Of a stretch of DNA of 9,354 nt, positions 2,650 through 7,644 are shown one piece after another. Origin of the DNA: an uncultured Bacteroidales bacterium (lineage in GTDB: Bacteria; Bacteroidota; Bacteroidia; Bacteroidales; F082); NCBI GenBank assembly GCA_946410535.1, contig CAMKAR010000066.1, forward strand, positions 1-9,354. The letters run 5' to 3'. Position 1 is the first letter of the stretch; each line of letters opens with the position of its first letter. The notes below the pieces were generated by a model. That model was given only the letters and a program-made list of their open reading frames with translations, was not told where the DNA came from and searched no databases. The translations under genes and the position numbers were made by a program.

Positions 2650-5067
2650 TTAAAACTTAAAACTATATGAGACTGTCGGGATGATCGGGAAAATGCTGAC
2701 CTGCTTGAGCACCTTGCGTTCGTTCTGCAAGTTCTCGTCAAACTCGTAGCTGGTGTACACAAGGAACGGGTTGAGGTGGTTGTAGACATTGTAGACGCTG
2801 ACGTTGATGGTGCTGATGCCGTCGGGGGAGGGGATGTGGAAGTTGGCGCCGAGGTCGAGGCGGTGGTAGCTGCCAAGGCGGTAGTTGTTGCGTTCCAAGG
2901 CTTGGATTTGCGGGATATAGCCATCGTCGTCGGGGAAACCCTCGTAGATTTGCGTGCCTAAGGTGCCGCAGTTGCCGCTGCTGAAGACCCAAGTGGCGCT
3001 CAGGTCGATGTCGTCGCTGAGCTTGTGCTGCACGGTGATGCTGATGTCGTGGCGGCGGTCGTATTTGGCCGGAAACACTTTGCCGTTATTGATCGTCATG
3101 CCCTCGCGGTCGAACTGGCGTTTGGAGTGTGCCCAGGTGTAGCCCACCCAACCCGTGGTTTTGCCAAACGAGCGTTGCACGAGCAATTCCACGCCGTAGG
3201 CCCAGCCTTTGCCTAAGCAGACCTTGTTCTCCCAAGTCTCGGCTGACCCGAAAAACGAGGCGCCGTCCTTGTATTCCAGCAGGTTGTCCATCTGCTTGTA
3301 GTAGCCTTCAACGGAGATGTCGAAGAGGCGTGGCAGCTCGTAGAAGGCACCAAGCGACCACTGATGCGCGTTCATCGGGACGATGTTTTTGGTCACGGGC
3401 ACCCACAAGTCGGTGGGCAGGCTGAGGCTGCTGTTGCTGAGCAGGTGGACGTATTGCGTCATGTAGGCATAGCCAGCCTTGAGCGAGAAGTTGGAGGCCA
3501 ACATCAGGCTGGCACTGAGGCGCGGCTGGACGCTTTGGTAGGTTTTGCCATCGACGGTGAAAGTGGAATAGTGCACGCCTGCGTTCACACGGAAAATATC
3601 GCCGAAGGTCATGTTGTCCTCGGCATAGAGTGCGGTTTCGTGGGCGAATACGGTGGGTGCGCCCGTGACGGTGTCGATGACGGGGGTCTCGCCTTCAATC
3701 ATTTTAGTCGATTGCACTTCGGGCTTGAAGATGTGGTAGGTGTAGCTGCCGCCAAAGCGGATTTCGTGGTTGGGCAGGGGCGTGTAGTCGAAGTCGACTT
3801 TGGCGGTCAGGTCGTGGATGCTTGAGTTGTAGGCCATGCTGAAGTCGTTTTTGTAGCCGAGGTTGGTGAGATTATTGGTCATTTCCTCATTGATGCCCAT
3901 GCCAAGATGGTGGCGGTATTGCGTGTAGTTGACCGAAGCATCCATGAAGAGCTTCTGCGACATCACATGGTTCCAGCGCAGGGCGGCCACCTTGTTGCCC
4001 CACTTCCAGTCGATGTTCATCTTGGTGAGGTAGTGGGTGCTGTCGTCGGTGGCATAGTCGCGGTTCTTCACGCCGAAATAGATGGCGTCGTCGCCGGTGT
4101 AGAAACTCAGGTAGAGACGGTCTTTGTCCGAAATCTTCCAGTTCAGCTTACCGTTGAAGTCGTAGAAATAGTAGCCCACGTTGAACTTGCCGATGTCGGG
4201 GTCTCTCAGGCGGGCAATCCAGAGGACGGGCTTCAGCAACAGGTCGCCGTAGGTGCGGCGGTAGGAGAGGTTGAACGACAGCTTGTCTTTCACGATCGGG
4301 CCTTCGAAGTTGAACTTCGATGAGATGAGGCCGATGCTGGCGTTGCCATGGTATTTCTGCATGTCGCCTTCTTTCATGCGGATGTCGACCACCGACGAAA
4401 GTCGGCCTCCGAAATGCGCAGGGAAACTACCCTTATATAAGGTGACGTTTTTCAAGGCGTCGGGGTTGAAGACCGAGAAGAAGCCCAAAGCGTGGTTGAC
4501 GTTGTAGACTGGCACGCCGTCCAAGAGCAACAAGTTCTCGTCGGGACCGCCGCCGCGCACATACATGCCCGCCGAGCCTTCAGAGCCGTTCTGCACGCCG
4601 GGCAGCAGCTGGATGGCCTTCAAGACGTCGGCTTCGCCAAAGAGGGTCGGGATGCTCTTGATTTGCTGCACGGGCAGTTCCACCACGCTCATTTGCGGGC
4701 TGCGGGCACTCACCGTGGCGCGGGTGCTTTCGATGACCACTTCGTCCAAGGTGGTGTTGGCCTCCAAAGAAAAATTAATGTTTTGGTTTTCTTTCAGGTC
4801 GAGGGTGCGGGTTTGTTGGGTGTAGCCTACATACGACACTTGCAGCTCCACCTCGCCTTGATTCAAGGTCAGGGTATAGAAACCATAACTATTTGTGGCG
4901 CAACCTTTTCCGGAATTCTTATCGAAAACCGTCGCCCCGATGAGGGTTTCCTTGCTGGCCGCATCCATCACATAGCCGCTGATGGTGCGCCGTTGCGCGA
5001 AGCCTGGCACGCAGGCCAATAACAAGCCGATGGCAACCAACCATCGGCTCAATAAATGTTGTTTCAT
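2650..5067 (-). CDS. TonB-dependent outer-membrane receptor (carboxypeptidase-regulatory-like N-domain, plug, beta-barrel)
   Basis: An 805-residue protein. A Sec signal peptide covers residues 1 to about 24 (ending PGFAQ). Residues about 27-102 form a carboxypeptidase-D-regulatory-like beta-sandwich (ISGYVMDAASKETLIGATV, then SYGFY and VSYVGY). A TonB-box-like stretch, LDEVVIES, lies at about 107-114. The plug domain follows to about residue 231, with MYVRGGGPDENLLLLDGVPVYN (split here by the typical R-G-G-G) and FPAHFGGRLSSVVDIR. The remainder is rich in alternating aromatic strands, and the chain ends VSYSFKF, with the aromatic C-terminus expected for BAM insertion. It has no STN domain, so no direct anti-sigma signalling is predicted. 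It is shorter than SusC proteins (about 1000 residues) and belongs with DUF4249-paired receptors. It imports an unknown ligand across the outer membrane using TonB-ExbBD energy. The ATG at 5067 directly precedes the signal peptide. Confidence 0.95.
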   Translation of the reverse strand: MKQHLLSRWLVAIGLLLACVPGFAQRRTISGYVMDAASKETLIGATVFDKNSGKGCATNSYGFYTLTLNQGEVELQVSYVGYTQQTRTLDLKENQNINFSLEANTTLDEVVIESTRATVSARSPQMSVVELPVQQIKSIPTLFGEADVLKAIQLLPGVQNGSEGSAGMYVRGGGPDENLLLLDGVPVYNVNHALGFFSVFNPDALKNVTLYKGSFPAHFGGRLSSVVDIRMKEGDMQKYHGNASIGLISSKFNFEGPIVKDKLSFNLSYRRTYGDLLLKPVLWIARLRDPDIGKFNVGYYFYDFNGKLNWKISDKDRLYLSFYTGDDAIYFGVKNRDYATDDSTHYLTKMNIDWKWGNKVAALRWNHVMSQKLFMDASVNYTQYRHHLGMGINEEMTNNLTNLGYKNDFSMAYNSSIHDLTAKVDFDYTPLPNHEIRFGGSYTYHIFKPEVQSTKMIEGETPVIDTVTGAPTVFAHETALYAEDNMTFGDIFRVNAGVHYSTFTVDGKTYQSVQPRLSASLMLASNFSLKAGYAYMTQYVHLLSNSSLSLPTDLWVPVTKNIVPMNAHQWSLGAFYELPRLFDISVEGYYKQMDNLLEYKDGASFFGSAETWENKVCLGKGWAYGVELLVQRSFGKTTGWVGYTWAHSKRQFDREGMTINNGKVFPAKYDRRHDISITVQHKLSDDIDLSATWVFSSGNCGTLGTQIYEGFPDDDGYIPQIQALERNNYRLGSYHRLDLGANFHIPSPDGISTINVSVYNVYNHLNPFLVYTSYEFDENLQNERKVLKQVSIFPIIPTVSYSFKF

Positions 5068-5073
5068 TTCAAT

Positions 5074-5108
5074 TGCGTTATGATGGTTTTTCTAACCGCT
5101 TTAACGCA
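5074..5108. promoter_or_regulatory. Possible hairpin in the receptor gene leader
   Basis: TGCGTTA (5074-5080) and TAACGCA (5102-5108) are 7-nt perfect reverse complements. Between them GGTT (5085-5088) and AACC (5094-5097) can pair across a 5-nt loop. The structure lies in the 5' leader, 7 nt upstream of the receptor start codon on the minus strand, so it could affect translation initiation. No convincing TAnnTTTG box was found in this 81-nt gap. Confidence 0.25.
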
Positions 5109-5139
5109 TAGGGGGCTTTGTTATTGTGTTTCCATATCG

Positions 5140-5151
5140 TGAAACGTTTCA
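5140..5151. promoter_or_regulatory. Perfect 12-bp palindrome resembling a LacI-family operator
   Basis: TGAAACGTTTCA is a perfect palindrome with the central CG typical of LacI/GalR/RbsR-family operators. It lies 73 nt upstream of the TonB-dependent receptor start codon and overlaps the stop codon of the ATPase gene. Its position suits regulation of the receptor operon. No LacI-family gene is in the window, so the regulator is unknown and the assignment is inference. Confidence 0.4.
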
Positions 5152-6498
5152 AAGCAGTGGTGTCATATACAGAGGCAGGAAGTCGATGCCGTTTTCGTGC
5201 TTTAGGTCGGCGGAATGCAAAACGATAGGTGTAGTAAGGTATTTGTCGAACTTGGCGATACACTTTTTGATTGAAGTCAGGGTGTAGCGTTGCGACGATT
5301 TCACCTCAATAGGCGTGATGTTGTGACGCGAGGTTAGCTTTGATTTGGCCGTCAAGAAGTCAATTTCCATTCGGTCTTCAGCATTTTCGCGACTTGAGTT
5401 GCTGTAGAAATAAAGTTTGTGGCCTGCGGTGGCAAGCATCTGGGCCACAATGTTTTCAACCAACATCCCTTCGTTGATTTCCAATTTGTTATGAATGATT
5501 TTCTGGTAAATCTCGGTCGGGACGTGTCCTTTTTCGTCGAAAGCGTGGCTGAACAGCAGCCCAGTGTCGGCCATGTAGCACTTTAGCGTGTTGCGCTCCA
5601 TGTTGAGCCGCAACCCGATATTGGGGGCCGTACAATTGTAGCAAATGTTGACGATGCCTGCATCCGACAGCCAAAAGAAAGCGTCGTCGTAATCGCGATA
5701 AGCGGCACCGGATTCCAAGGCCGACAGACGGAATTTCTTCTCATGCTTCTGCAACTGGGCAGGAAGCTCATCAAAGATGCTTTTCACTTTGTGCTCGACA
5801 TTGGAGGCATATTTGGCGATGTCGTTTTTATAGACTTGTAGAATCGACCTTTTCACACGGTCAACTTCCTCAAAGTCTTTCGTCTCGATGTATTTCAGGA
5901 CGGCTTGTGGCATTCCGCCTACAATCATGTAGGTTCGAAAATAGTCCAACGCTTTGCGGTGGAGGCCACCAAGTGGTTGCTTTTTTTCGAAACATTCCCC
6001 GATGAACGGCATCAGCATGTCGTTGCCCATCGCCCAAAGGAACTCCTCAAAATCCATGGGATACATTGGCAGGGCTTCCTCTTCCGAAGGGATGACAATG
6101 TCTTTCACGTTCTTCTTGATGCTGATGAGCGAACCCGTCTCAATGTAGTCGAAACGCCCATCGGCAACGAGATATTTAATGGCGGAACGAGCGCGGGGGC
6201 ACAACTGCACTTCGTCGAAGATGACGACTGAATTGCGTGGGGTCAGCCTGACACTATAGTGGATTTGGAGGTTCGTCAGAAGTGTATCAAGGTCGCTGAG
6301 GTAGTTGTCGAACCATTCGCTGACGATGTTCTCCGCCTTGTTGAAGTCGATGAGCAGGTAGGAATCGTATTCGTTTCGGGCAAACTCCTCAACGATGTAG
6401 CTCTTCCCGATACGCCGCGCCCCTTCGATGAGGACGGCTGTTTCCCCGTGGCGCTTGTTTTTCCATTCAAGTAACTTGCTGTAAATCTTTCGTTTCAT
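5149..6498 (-). CDS. AAA ATPase with C-terminal DUF4143 (AAA_14/DUF4143, COG1373-like)
   Basis: A 449-residue protein. Walker A is GARRIGKS at residues 26-33. Walker B is VVIFDE at 91-96, with Asp95/Glu96. A sensor-like ETGS is at 120-123. This is the AAA_14 layout. The C-terminal part matches DUF4143, with a restriction-endonuclease-like signature: D380 in MEIDFL, then E398-x-K400 in IEVKSS. The family is widespread in bacteria and archaea, often multicopy, and its function is unsettled; toxin-antitoxin, mobile-element and nucleic-acid roles have been suggested. Length is normal and no frameshift is seen. The gene and its leader are visibly richer in A/T than the flanking S41 and receptor genes, which fits later acquisition. 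It has its own promoter with a triple dyad repeat, and its stop lies 81 nt before the receptor start. Confidence 0.92.
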   Translation of the reverse strand: MKRKIYSKLLEWKNKRHGETAVLIEGARRIGKSYIVEEFARNEYDSYLLIDFNKAENIVSEWFDNYLSDLDTLLTNLQIHYSVRLTPRNSVVIFDEVQLCPRARSAIKYLVADGRFDYIETGSLISIKKNVKDIVIPSEEEALPMYPMDFEEFLWAMGNDMLMPFIGECFEKKQPLGGLHRKALDYFRTYMIVGGMPQAVLKYIETKDFEEVDRVKRSILQVYKNDIAKYASNVEHKVKSIFDELPAQLQKHEKKFRLSALESGAAYRDYDDAFFWLSDAGIVNICYNCTAPNIGLRLNMERNTLKCYMADTGLLFSHAFDEKGHVPTEIYQKIIHNKLEINEGMLVENIVAQMLATAGHKLYFYSNSSRENAEDRMEIDFLTAKSKLTSRHNITPIEVKSSQRYTLTSIKKCIAKFDKYLTTPIVLHSADLKHENGIDFLPLYMTPLL

Positions 6499-6506
6499 AT
6501 TTGTAT

Positions 6507-6592
6507 TTACATCTTTTCAAGATTATTGAGATTGCAAAATTACATCTTTTCAAGATTATCGCAAGTTTAAATTTCCATCTTTTCAAGATTAT
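6507..6592. repeat. Three 20-nt dyad repeats with exact 33-nt period upstream of the ATPase gene
   Basis: Copies lie at 6507-6526, 6540-6559 and 6573-6592. They are identical except for one base (A or C at the third position) and share the core CATCTTTTCAAGATTAT. Each contains the dyad ATCTT-TTC-AAGAT, as expected for a dimeric repressor site. Spacers are 13 nt and differ in sequence. On the minus strand the first transcribed copy forms most of the ATPase mRNA leader, and the other two surround or precede the promoter. Three helical turns per period would put all three sites on nearly the same face of the DNA. Confidence 0.92.
6535..6564 (-). promoter_or_regulatory. Promoter of the ATPase gene (TTG-N19-TAATTTTG)
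   Basis: On the minus strand, TTG at 6562-6564 is followed after 19 nt by TAATTTTG (6535-6542), an exact match to the -7 consensus TAnnTTTG with standard Bacteroidota spacing. Transcription would begin near 6527-6531, giving a leader of about 30 nt. The middle dyad repeat fills the -33/-7 spacer and overlaps the first bases of the -7 box, so a bound protein there should block initiation. Confidence 0.7.
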
Positions 6593-6601
6593 TTGAAAAG
6601 A
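6578..6601. promoter_or_regulatory. 9-bp inverted repeat joining the third dyad copy to an inverted half-site
   Basis: TCTTTTCAA (6578-6586) and TTGAAAAGA (6593-6601) are perfect reverse complements around the 6-nt loop GATTAT. The right arm looks like a fourth, inverted half-copy of the dyad motif. It begins 8 nt past the S41 peptidase stop codon, so it could also be a weak 3'-end hairpin for that operon. It is A/T-rich and lacks a strong T-run. Confidence 0.45.
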
Positions 6602-6609
6602 CGACATCG

Positions 6610-7644
6610 TTACAACCCAACAATCCAATCCGCAGCCGTCTCAATCACGTTGTCGATGCCTTGGGCGGTGCAGGCGGGGTCGAGGAGGACGCGCACTGCT
6701 GGCGGCACGCCGTTCTCGTAGTTCTGGCCGTCGAGGGCGATGGTGCGGGTCGTGCTGAAACGGTAGTTCCAGCCGTTGGGCAGCGTGCCACCGTTGGGGA
6801 TGCCCATGCCGCCACCGCTGTAGTCGCCAAAGAGCTTGATGTTGTCGTAGCCCTGAGTGCACACCGAGAAGAACGACGTGGCGCTATACGACCCACGGTC
6901 GATGAGCACGGCCACGGGCTTGGTGTAGGCGTTGTCCTTGCCCAAGATGCTGCTGTCGGCAGCGTACACCTCTTGGAAGTCGGTGAACTCATCGTGGCCG
7001 GGGCCGCTCTTCACTTGGGTCTTGTAGAGGAGCTGCTTGTGGTTGTCGAAGATGCTGAGCAGGTTTTGCACGTTGGTGATGGCACCTCCGGTGTTTTGGC
7101 GCAAGTCGAGAATCATGCCGTCGCAGTCCTTGTAGTAGTTGACCATGTATTTCATGAGGTCGGTGCTGACATCGTTCGAGAACGAGGAATAGCGGATGTA
7201 GGCCACCTTGCCGTCGCGGATGGCGTTGTGGGCAAAGCTGCCAGTAGTGTGGTGATAGACAGTGAGATAATTAAGCAGAACGACCTCTGTGTTGATGTTG
7301 CGATCGGCATACATCTTATAATATACCGAGTCGTTGCGCGACGCATCGAAGCCAGAATAGAGGTTGGTGTGGCCGTCGCGAAGCGTGTTGAGCATGGCGA
7401 CGCACACGTCGAAGAGTTGGTAGTCGTCCATGTCGTCGTTCACCATTGGGCGGTACACTTCGCGCACCGAGTCCCAGTCGATGCCTTTCACGTCGAAGAG
7501 GGTGTAGTTGCGGTCCACTTGGTCCCAGAGATAGTCGAACACGTTGACGGGGTTCTTAGGCTCGTCTTTTTCCATGAAGGCACGCTCGCACGAGGCGAAG
7601 GCCAAGGCCAAAAGGCCGAAAATGATGATATTGAGTTTTTTCAT
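6610..7644 (-). CDS. S41-family peptidase lipoprotein (C-terminal processing protease fold, no PDZ)
   Basis: A 344-residue protein from the ATG at 7644; the in-frame TTG at 7656 overlaps the upstream stop and is less likely. The signal peptide ends AFASC with Cys19, making it a lipoprotein. Family S41 landmarks are LRDGHTNL (88-95, His92), the core strand LDLRQNTGG (179-187) and GSYSATSFF (251-259), with Ser254 aligning to the catalytic Ser of CtpA/Prc. The Lys of the Ser-Lys dyad is absent: the expected position, 25 residues later, falls in a GDYSGGGMG stretch. That looks more like the Tricorn/IRBP-type branch, which uses a Ser-His-Ser-Glu arrangement. No PDZ domain is evident. It is translationally close (8 nt) to the upstream barrel-protein gene. 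Substrate unknown; it may be an active peptidase or a non-catalytic homologue. Confidence 0.88.
   Translation of the reverse strand: MKKLNIIIFGLLALAFASCERAFMEKDEPKNPVNVFDYLWDQVDRNYTLFDVKGIDWDSVREVYRPMVNDDMDDYQLFDVCVAMLNTLRDGHTNLYSGFDASRNDSVYYKMYADRNINTEVVLLNYLTVYHHTTGSFAHNAIRDGKVAYIRYSSFSNDVSTDLMKYMVNYYKDCDGMILDLRQNTGGAITNVQNLLSIFDNHKQLLYKTQVKSGPGHDEFTDFQEVYAADSSILGKDNAYTKPVAVLIDRGSYSATSFFSVCTQGYDNIKLFGDYSGGGMGIPNGGTLPNGWNYRFSTTRTIALDGQNYENGVPPAVRVLLDPACTAQGIDNVIETAADWIVGL

Follow-up and report, generated by a model that had tools for sequence, protein, structure and literature searches.

An array of three direct repeats was found upstream of an AAA_14/DUF4143 ATPase gene in the window, the whole 9354-nt stretch of Bacteroidales DNA that was analyzed, and similar arrays were found upstream of many of its homologues. 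The array architecture is conserved, and there is no family-wide operator motif. The array is probably a private operator: each ATPase would bind its own array and repress its own promoter.

Repeat Array and Predicted Promoter of the ATPase Gene

The ATPase gene lies on the minus strand (5149..6498) and encodes 449 amino acids. A repeat search of the window located three copies in front of it, at 6507–6539, 6540–6572, and 6573–6605, with spacings of 33 and 33 nt. TRF gave a period of 33 with a score of 119, and the exact 33-nt period described in the earlier note on this DNA was confirmed by both searches. An identical 15-nt core, CATCTTTTCAAGATT on the plus strand, occurred three times, at 6510–6524, 6543–6557, and 6576–6590; read on the coding strand, the core was AATCTTGAAAAGATG. 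Every core formed a perfect 5-bp dyad, ATCTT-N3-AAGAT, as had been described.

The units were interleaved with a predicted promoter of the form TTG-N19-TAATTTTG (6564–6535, minus strand). The element TAATTTTG (6535..6542, minus strand) was assigned as a Bacteroidota-type −7 box on the basis of TAnnTTTG, which we take to be the −7 consensus of this phylum. The putative −33 element, TTG (6562..6564, minus strand), lies 19 nt from this box. Unit copy 2 (6543..6557, minus strand) fills the spacer between the two elements and abuts the −7 box. Copy 3 (6576..6590, minus strand) lies upstream of the −33 element, and copy 1 (6510..6524, minus strand) lies within the predicted first transcribed bases. 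The placement of all three copies agreed with the earlier description. An inverted fourth half-site had also been listed; this was TTGAAAAG at 6594–6601, and since the upstream regions of the three closest relatives (L001–L003) did not have it at that place, it was treated as a chance match.

The sites overlap the predicted promoter of the ATPase gene that follows them, as is seen in autoregulatory operators. Unique spacers of similar length with no tie to the promoter of one gene, the features of a CRISPR array, were not found. The arrays here and upstream of homologues comprise two to seven short units in a fixed position at one gene's promoter and are therefore not CRISPR arrays.

Arrays Upstream of Homologous Genes

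The homologue set consisted of the best 80 of at least 565 confirmed candidate genome loci (61–91% protein identity) and one viral locus. Start codons were assigned mechanically, and the organism names of MAG contigs were used as labels. Of 82 upstream regions, including that of the window, 62 had confident arrays with between two and seven direct units. Most had a spacing of 33–34 nt and ended shortly before the start codon. The unit sequence changed between homologues while the architecture was kept. In the orthologue clade, the unit was approximately AATCT-N7-GTG, an asymmetric direct repeat with a variable middle common to the copies of one array. Copy-to-copy identity within an array was 0.72–0.99 over the 15 unit positions, which were chosen partly by likeness, 0.51–0.62 over the next five positions, and 0.24–0.43 beyond.

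A triple-repeat score was calculated with 16-nt windows at spacings of 18–45 nt (maximum 48, threshold at least 36). The threshold was reached in 57 of 81 homologue upstream regions and in 0.25% of dinucleotide shuffles. Upstream regions of other long ORFs from these loci served as controls, and 8 of 202 reached at least 36. Four of these eight belonged to DUF4143 genes, and one (L043) faced a second array with the ATPase unit, so that the unexplained control arrays were those in L017, L020, and L072. The 202 control ORFs included at least five DUF4143 genes, one of them L024:431–1604. The unexplained case in L072, a locus of Porphyromonas bennonis, was a 22-nt-period repeat upstream of a ketopantoate hydroxymethyltransferase gene (L072:5846–6658).

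The position of the units relative to the promoter was also conserved. Among the 62 orthologue arrays, TAnnTTTG boxes were found near units in 43 loci. There were 48 such boxes, and 44 of them were at offset 15 from the unit start, directly behind the unit. In 44 of 48 cases, the box followed the second or third copy, counted from the start codon.

All five pairs of the window dyad were kept in 12 of the 62 orthologous units, and 34 units kept two or fewer. The dyad was rejected as a family-wide operator, and the binding of a dimer to the dyad, which the earlier note had suggested, was not supported. It had also been expected that the motif and its period of about 33 nt would recur upstream of homologues. 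The array architecture did recur; the exact motif was limited to close relatives.

A wider set was obtained by a profile search of the fetched loci, which gave 315 hits, 303 of them with an upstream region, and 220 DUF4143 genes after dereplication. Triple arrays (score at least 34/42) were found for 144 of the 220 genes and in 4 of 1100 shuffles. At least one of the 144, a low-complexity repeat in L075, is probably false. The 144 arrays contained 288 spacings, 28 of 22–23 nt and 260 of 31–35 nt, and no other spacing was found within the scanned range of 17–48 nt. The two classes correspond to about two or three helical turns. When proteins were grouped by the start of the winged-helix segment, the 22–23-nt period was found in none of the 112 arrays of five groups and in 14 of the 32 remaining arrays, which indicated that the period follows the protein type.

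Sixteen plasmid and phage records with organism names were picked by hand from the hit lists and scored with a threshold of at least 36/42. Arrays were found in eight: Segatella copri DSM 18205, Agathobacter rectalis, Collinsella aerofaciens, Segatella hominis, Bacteroides ovatus (23 nt), Bacteroides finegoldii (22 nt), and two fecal contigs labeled bacteriophage. The threshold was not reached in Ruminococcus albus 7, Fusobacterium vincentii, Phocaeicola vulgatus, Thermus thermophilus HB27, Methanomethylovorans hollandica, Rhizobium leguminosarum, Chelativorans sp., and Acidithiobacillus caldus. The array architecture spans Bacteroidota, Bacillota, and Actinomycetota, yet it is not universal.

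Unit Sequences of Paralogues

In the genomes of three relatives, the number of DUF4143 genes was 54 (G001), 58 (G002), and 35 (G008). For genomes of 2.8–3.5 Mb, this is a large expansion of one single-gene family. Paralogue regions were taken from G002 (45) and G008 (15), and two of the 60, which were shorter than 200 nt, were left out. Three-copy arrays were found in 34 of the 58 upstream regions, compared with 8 of the 202 control ORFs, and the units differed between paralogues of one genome. In G002, where 29 of 45 genes had arrays, the copies within an array matched at an average of 13.4 of 14 positions. The best match of a unit in the promoters of other paralogues averaged 9.7 of 14, and that in mononucleotide-shuffled sequences averaged 9.2. 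The only pair of G002 genes at 14/14 was L112 and L118, and one further pair reached 13. L112 and L118 (contig C16) are divergent DUF4143 neighbors with one common intergenic array of 22-nt period.

Matches to the unit were then counted in whole genomes. In the genomes of 10 relatives, 24 of 26 exact matches to ATCTTGAAAAGMTG were inside the array and two were outside; in G001, G002, and G011, all 12 were in the array. Matches with one mismatch outside arrays numbered 55, and a reversed control pattern gave 24 at up to one mismatch. A genome-wide regulon of the unit was unsupported, as exact matches lay almost only in the array. For the unit of L134, a paralogue with a period of 23 nt, all 17 exact matches in three genomes were in clusters with 23-nt spacing, i.e., in arrays. 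In G011, both clusters bordered contig ends, as would be expected if the assembly had split one array.

Strict unit privacy is not absolute. A search of the 619 kb of loci that carry the 144 array genes located 13 exact unit copies outside −300 to +60, spread over five loci. Four belonged to a longer, continuing array in L266 and five to the low-complexity repeat in L075; the others were in L059 (two), L062 (one), and L225 (one). A second copy of the unit-bearing leader was present in L043, L059, and L062. In L059, two copies of the ATPase unit were located at 1740–1800 in a leader repeat with 84% identity. These copies precede a nucleotidyltransferase (PF01909)/HEPN (PF05168) gene pair (1946–2699), which is toxin–antitoxin-like, just upstream of the ATPase gene. 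The extra copies may reflect co-regulation or a duplicated leader. In L043, a second, two-copy array with the ATPase unit was found about 3 kb downstream (4413–4480). A reverse-transcriptase gene, RVT_1 (4874–5758), is about 0.4 kb away. Two two-copy unit patterns were searched in viral contigs and gave 0 matches, and units on viral contigs were rejected as decoys or targets for these two patterns.

Predicted Protein and Covariation with the Unit

The window protein matched PF13173 with 78.1 bits and PF13635 with 79.3 bits, both over the cut-offs, and the PADLOC model of PDC-S01 (PDLC04786), a single-gene candidate for phage defense, with 376.4 bits and an E value of 4.1e-113. The four paralogues tested (L134, L142, L125, and L148) also matched PDC-S01. 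PDC-S01 is described as a fusion of an ATPase with a PD-(D/E)XK member (PMC12988326).

A structure was predicted by AlphaFold2 from 63 sequences, with a mean pLDDT of 88.5 and a pTM of 0.89. In the model, an AAA+ domain is followed by a winged-helix-like segment and a PD-(D/E)XK-like C-terminus. The AAA+ domain covers approximately residues 1–200 (5899..6498, minus strand) and contains GARRIGKS and VIFDEVQ, which we take to be Walker A and Walker B, respectively. The winged-helix reading, approximately residues 232–310 (5569..5805, minus strand), was based on the secondary structure of the model, with helices at 232–250 and 267–279 and strands at 283–289 and 305–309; this segment is the proposed reader of the unit. 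The nuclease-like domain covers approximately residues 343–448 (5155..5472, minus strand). K32, S33, D95, E96, D380, E398, and K400 were invariant in the 63 sequences, and the Walker A, Walker B, and PD-(D/E)XK residues of the window protein are intact.

The best Foldseek match of the model was the Pyrococcus ATPase 2qen, with a TM-score of 0.39 by query length. Orc/Cdc6 proteins, several of them on origin DNA, followed with TM-scores of 0.21–0.29 by query length, and a MuB filament was also among the matches with a low TM-score. No solved structure related by sequence to the window protein was found up to an E value of 1.

Covariation between protein and unit was investigated with 62 of 82 upstream regions that had confident units (49 after dereplication). 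The tree was drawn from 99 orthologue-type genes, of which 74 had confident units and 63 were left after dereplication. Residue 266 (codon 5701–5703, minus strand), which caps helix 267–279, varied with base 13 of the unit. In the 62 orthologues, R or K was found with G in 46 of 46 cases, and A, S, or T with A, C, or T in 16 of 16; the corresponding values in the tree set were 50 of 50 and 13 of 13. After correction for overall distance, this was the best of 4433 residue–base pairs (r = 0.857). On the tree, the association amounted to one independent pair, and a tree-aware scan for co-change placed it 7th of 4134. In other clades, the association of R266 with GTG (25/35 versus 10/19) was not significant (p = 0.23). 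A code in which R or K at 266 reads G13 was not kept as a rule for these three reasons. The covariation is suggestive at most.

The partial correlation in 13-residue windows gave no peak at the recognition helix; the best window was 367–379, a loop of the nuclease domain. The nuclease domain may thus contribute to unit binding. The earlier note had named the C-terminal domain as a possible DNA binder, which was not supported: in the model, the winged helix is in the middle of the protein (232–310) and the nuclease-like fold at the C-terminus. The ATPase is the simplest specific reader, because its gene is the only one in the homology block described below, and many different units coexist in a single genome. 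A winged helix in the model and Orc1/Cdc6 origin binders among the top structural matches, at low TM-scores, agree with this role. The logical case that the ATPase reads its own array is strong, and the direct evidence is weaker.

Gene-Plus-Array Block and Its Site

The window was compared with 14 relatives. Homology extended from between −62 and −95 to between +1229 and +1346 of the 1350-nt gene. The 5′ limit is where the window array begins, and the block holds no second gene. No colinear flank was found between the window and the 14 relatives, of which L001, L010, and L013 have little DNA on one side. The gene and the array look like an inherited unit. The putative cassette (5075..6617, minus strand) lies between TonB-receptor and S41-peptidase flanks, which adjoin other genes in relatives.

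In G001, G002, and G011, the two flanks were adjacent with 1.27–1.38 kb between them, and this DNA gave no blastn match to the window. An ATPase orthologue with its array was present on other contigs of these three genomes. The site held an ATPase_2 (PF01637) gene in G002 (L316:1596–2756) and G001 (L317:924–2048) and an AbiD/Abi_2 gene in G011 (L318:1879–2766). It behaves like a small exchange site for defense-type genes. That AbiD and ATPase_2 genes share the site in relatives is circumstantial evidence on a defense role; the PDC-S01 ATPase as an anti-phage factor is a conjecture. A similar upstream stretch, TTTTTATrCTAAAAAAATwATT...TCAGCATAA, was seen by eye in the ATPase_2 (L316, upstream of 2756) and Abi_2 (L318) inserts. 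It is possibly an operator or a remnant of exchange.

Flanking repeats were investigated in 78 of 80 loci and for 165 control ORFs by comparing 300 nt upstream with 500 nt downstream of the gene. Direct repeats of 32–165 nt flanked the gene in nine of the 78 ATPase loci (L005, L023, L032, L043, L056, L057, L062, L063, and L067) and in four of the 165 controls, one of which was a DUF4143 gene. Inverted flanking repeats were found in 0 of the 78 ATPase loci. In L005, L057, and L062, the second repeat copy started within 5 nt of the gene end. The identical 73-nt repeat of L057 ended at −89 beside the array and restarted 4 nt behind the stop codon, and the repeated stretch of L062 included units. 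DUF4143 members also occurred on plasmids and phage-like contigs.

Proposed Function and Alternative Explanations

Autoregulation is favored because the units are direct and phased, one unit abuts the −7 box, the units are specific to paralogues, and homology covers the gene plus the array. The ATPase would bind the units via its winged helix, and adjacent protomers would stack cooperatively on one face of the DNA. The assembly would block RNA polymerase, so that a potentially harmful ATPase-nuclease is kept at a low, self-limited level. Since one genome can hold dozens of paralogues, each may have drifted to its own unit, by which the copies would stay insulated. A transferred cassette of gene plus array would regulate itself in a new host. 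Invading DNA might relieve the repression, which is a conjecture. The operator-like array built into the promoter, with autoregulation by the ATPase as its best explanation, was supported as first proposed, and the array is specific to this gene and its architecture recurs upstream of homologues; the dyad and dimer part of the proposal was not supported.

The direct flanking repeats and second unit copies lowered our estimate for repression slightly in favor of a role in assembly or cassette movement. An ATPase-bound array could be mainly non-transcriptional, i.e., an assembly site resembling iterons or origin recognition boxes, for oligomerization, self-marking, or the spread, copying, or exclusion of cassettes. 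Helical phasing and several copies would suit a filament or ring, the matches to Orc1/Cdc6 on origin DNA and the MuB filament, at low TM-scores, point the same way, and so do homology of gene plus array at an exchangeable site, the direct flanking repeats, which were commoner than in controls and none of them inverted, and the members on plasmids and phage-like contigs. However, the lock of the unit to the −7 box at offset 15 is expected of promoter control and needless for assembly, and 69 of the 78 loci have no flanking repeat; we consider this explanation unlikely, though the most serious competitor of promoter control. A broader and still less likely proposal is that DUF4143/PDC-S01 genes are self-contained cassettes, either selfish or immune, each with an address of its own. 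The array-bound ATPase-nuclease would silence its gene and mark self, disturbance by an invader or arrival of the same address would activate the nuclease, the address would guide cassette movement, and dozens of insulated addresses would coexist in one genome. Movement guided by such an address would account for the direct repeats and the second unit copies that some loci have.

Readers other than the ATPase were also considered. Once the tree is taken into account, covariation with the ATPase is weak, as it would be if a separate trans-acting regulator read the arrays; but with differing paralogue units and a one-gene block, each array would require an unlinked regulator of its own, and we consider a separate regulator improbable. 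Neutral tandem duplication, with slippage or unequal crossing over to keep the copies similar, would fit the range of two to seven copies among confident arrays. It is very improbable, given that the DNA between units has diverged while the units, picked partly by likeness, stay alike, that unrelated units have only two classes of period, that one unit is locked to the −7 box, and that arrays are mostly absent before other ORFs in those loci. Control at the RNA level, raised in the earlier note, draws on the perfect 5-bp dyad of each window unit, which could form a leader hairpin. A transcript from the promoter does not include the units upstream of it, the dyad is poorly kept among orthologous units, as counted above, and we give this explanation the least credence of all.

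Comparison with Known Systems

Plasmid iterons are tandem direct repeats of about 20 nt, about two helical turns, beside an autoregulated Rep gene and often over its promoter. The DUF4143 arrays are likewise tandem direct repeats at a helical period beside the gene of their putative binder. Unlike iterons, they occur many times per genome with different units and a main spacing of 33 nt, the proposed binder is an AAA+/nuclease protein, and no replication function is claimed for them. Archaeal Orc1/Cdc6 proteins combine AAA+ and winged-helix domains, and in many archaea, origin recognition boxes lie near the orc gene. The window protein, which matched 2qby and 2v1u of this group, has the same two domains in the model and repeated sites by its gene. 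It differs in the PD-(D/E)XK-like domain that follows and in an array that covers the promoter, and the TM-scores were low, 0.24–0.29 by query length. ATPase_2 (PF01637, 2qen) is of the same broad AAA+ kind and occupies the window's site in two relatives; no obvious three-copy array was seen by eye upstream of it.

In toxin–antitoxin systems and in restriction–modification systems with a C-protein, promoter operators limit the expression of defense genes, and the regulator is a separate protein. Control of defense expression by a repressor, RptR, is reported as well (PMC12255303). The DUF4143 arrays are proposed to be operators of this type, at a promoter and limiting the expression of a putative defense gene. 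Unlike in toxin–antitoxin and C-protein systems, the ATPase-nuclease is proposed to regulate its own gene, through a multi-copy array that is specific to that gene. The PADLOC models of PDC-S01 are protein profiles, which the window protein and four paralogues match.

No mention of arrays upstream of PDC-S01, DUF4143, COG1373, or PF13173 genes was found in the literature searched, which consisted mostly of titles and excerpts, and no account of the substrate or control of PDC-S01 was found there. DUF4143 is a table entry in a Thermus Argonaute study. Autoregulation via direct repeats is of a known kind; as far as the searches show, a gene-specific, helically quantized array in a large ATPase-nuclease family is apparently undescribed.

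PDC-S01 is reported to be the fourth most common defense across all prokaryotes, and experimental validation is said to be pending for most such defense candidates (PMC12988326). A rumen survey gives PDC-S01 as the most frequent individual locus, with 10 358 occurrences (PMC13356809). With the arrays, well over 100 PDC-S01/DUF4143 members gain a candidate DNA ligand, and the autoregulation and target recognition of PDC-S01 become open to direct test. The arrays may also provide a natural set of mutually different protein–operator pairs inside one genome.

Family Members with Other Upstream Patterns

In the set of 220 genes, those without a triple array comprised 28 that had just a pair and 48 that lacked both array and pair. 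Arrays were present for 138 of 188 genes of at least 400 aa and for 6 of 32 shorter genes; 30 of the 48 genes without array or pair were at least 400 aa long. Perfect 8-bp inverted repeats were enriched in these 48 genes (16/48 versus a shuffle rate of 5%), which suggests that part of the DUF4143 family may use dyads instead of direct arrays. Several short (<400 aa) genes, e.g., among L119, L129, L115, and L098, had palindromes, some of them paired 32 nt apart. In the Rhizobium leguminosarum and Acidithiobacillus caldus members, CCTTGCA...TGCAAGG was seen by eye just before and at the start codon.
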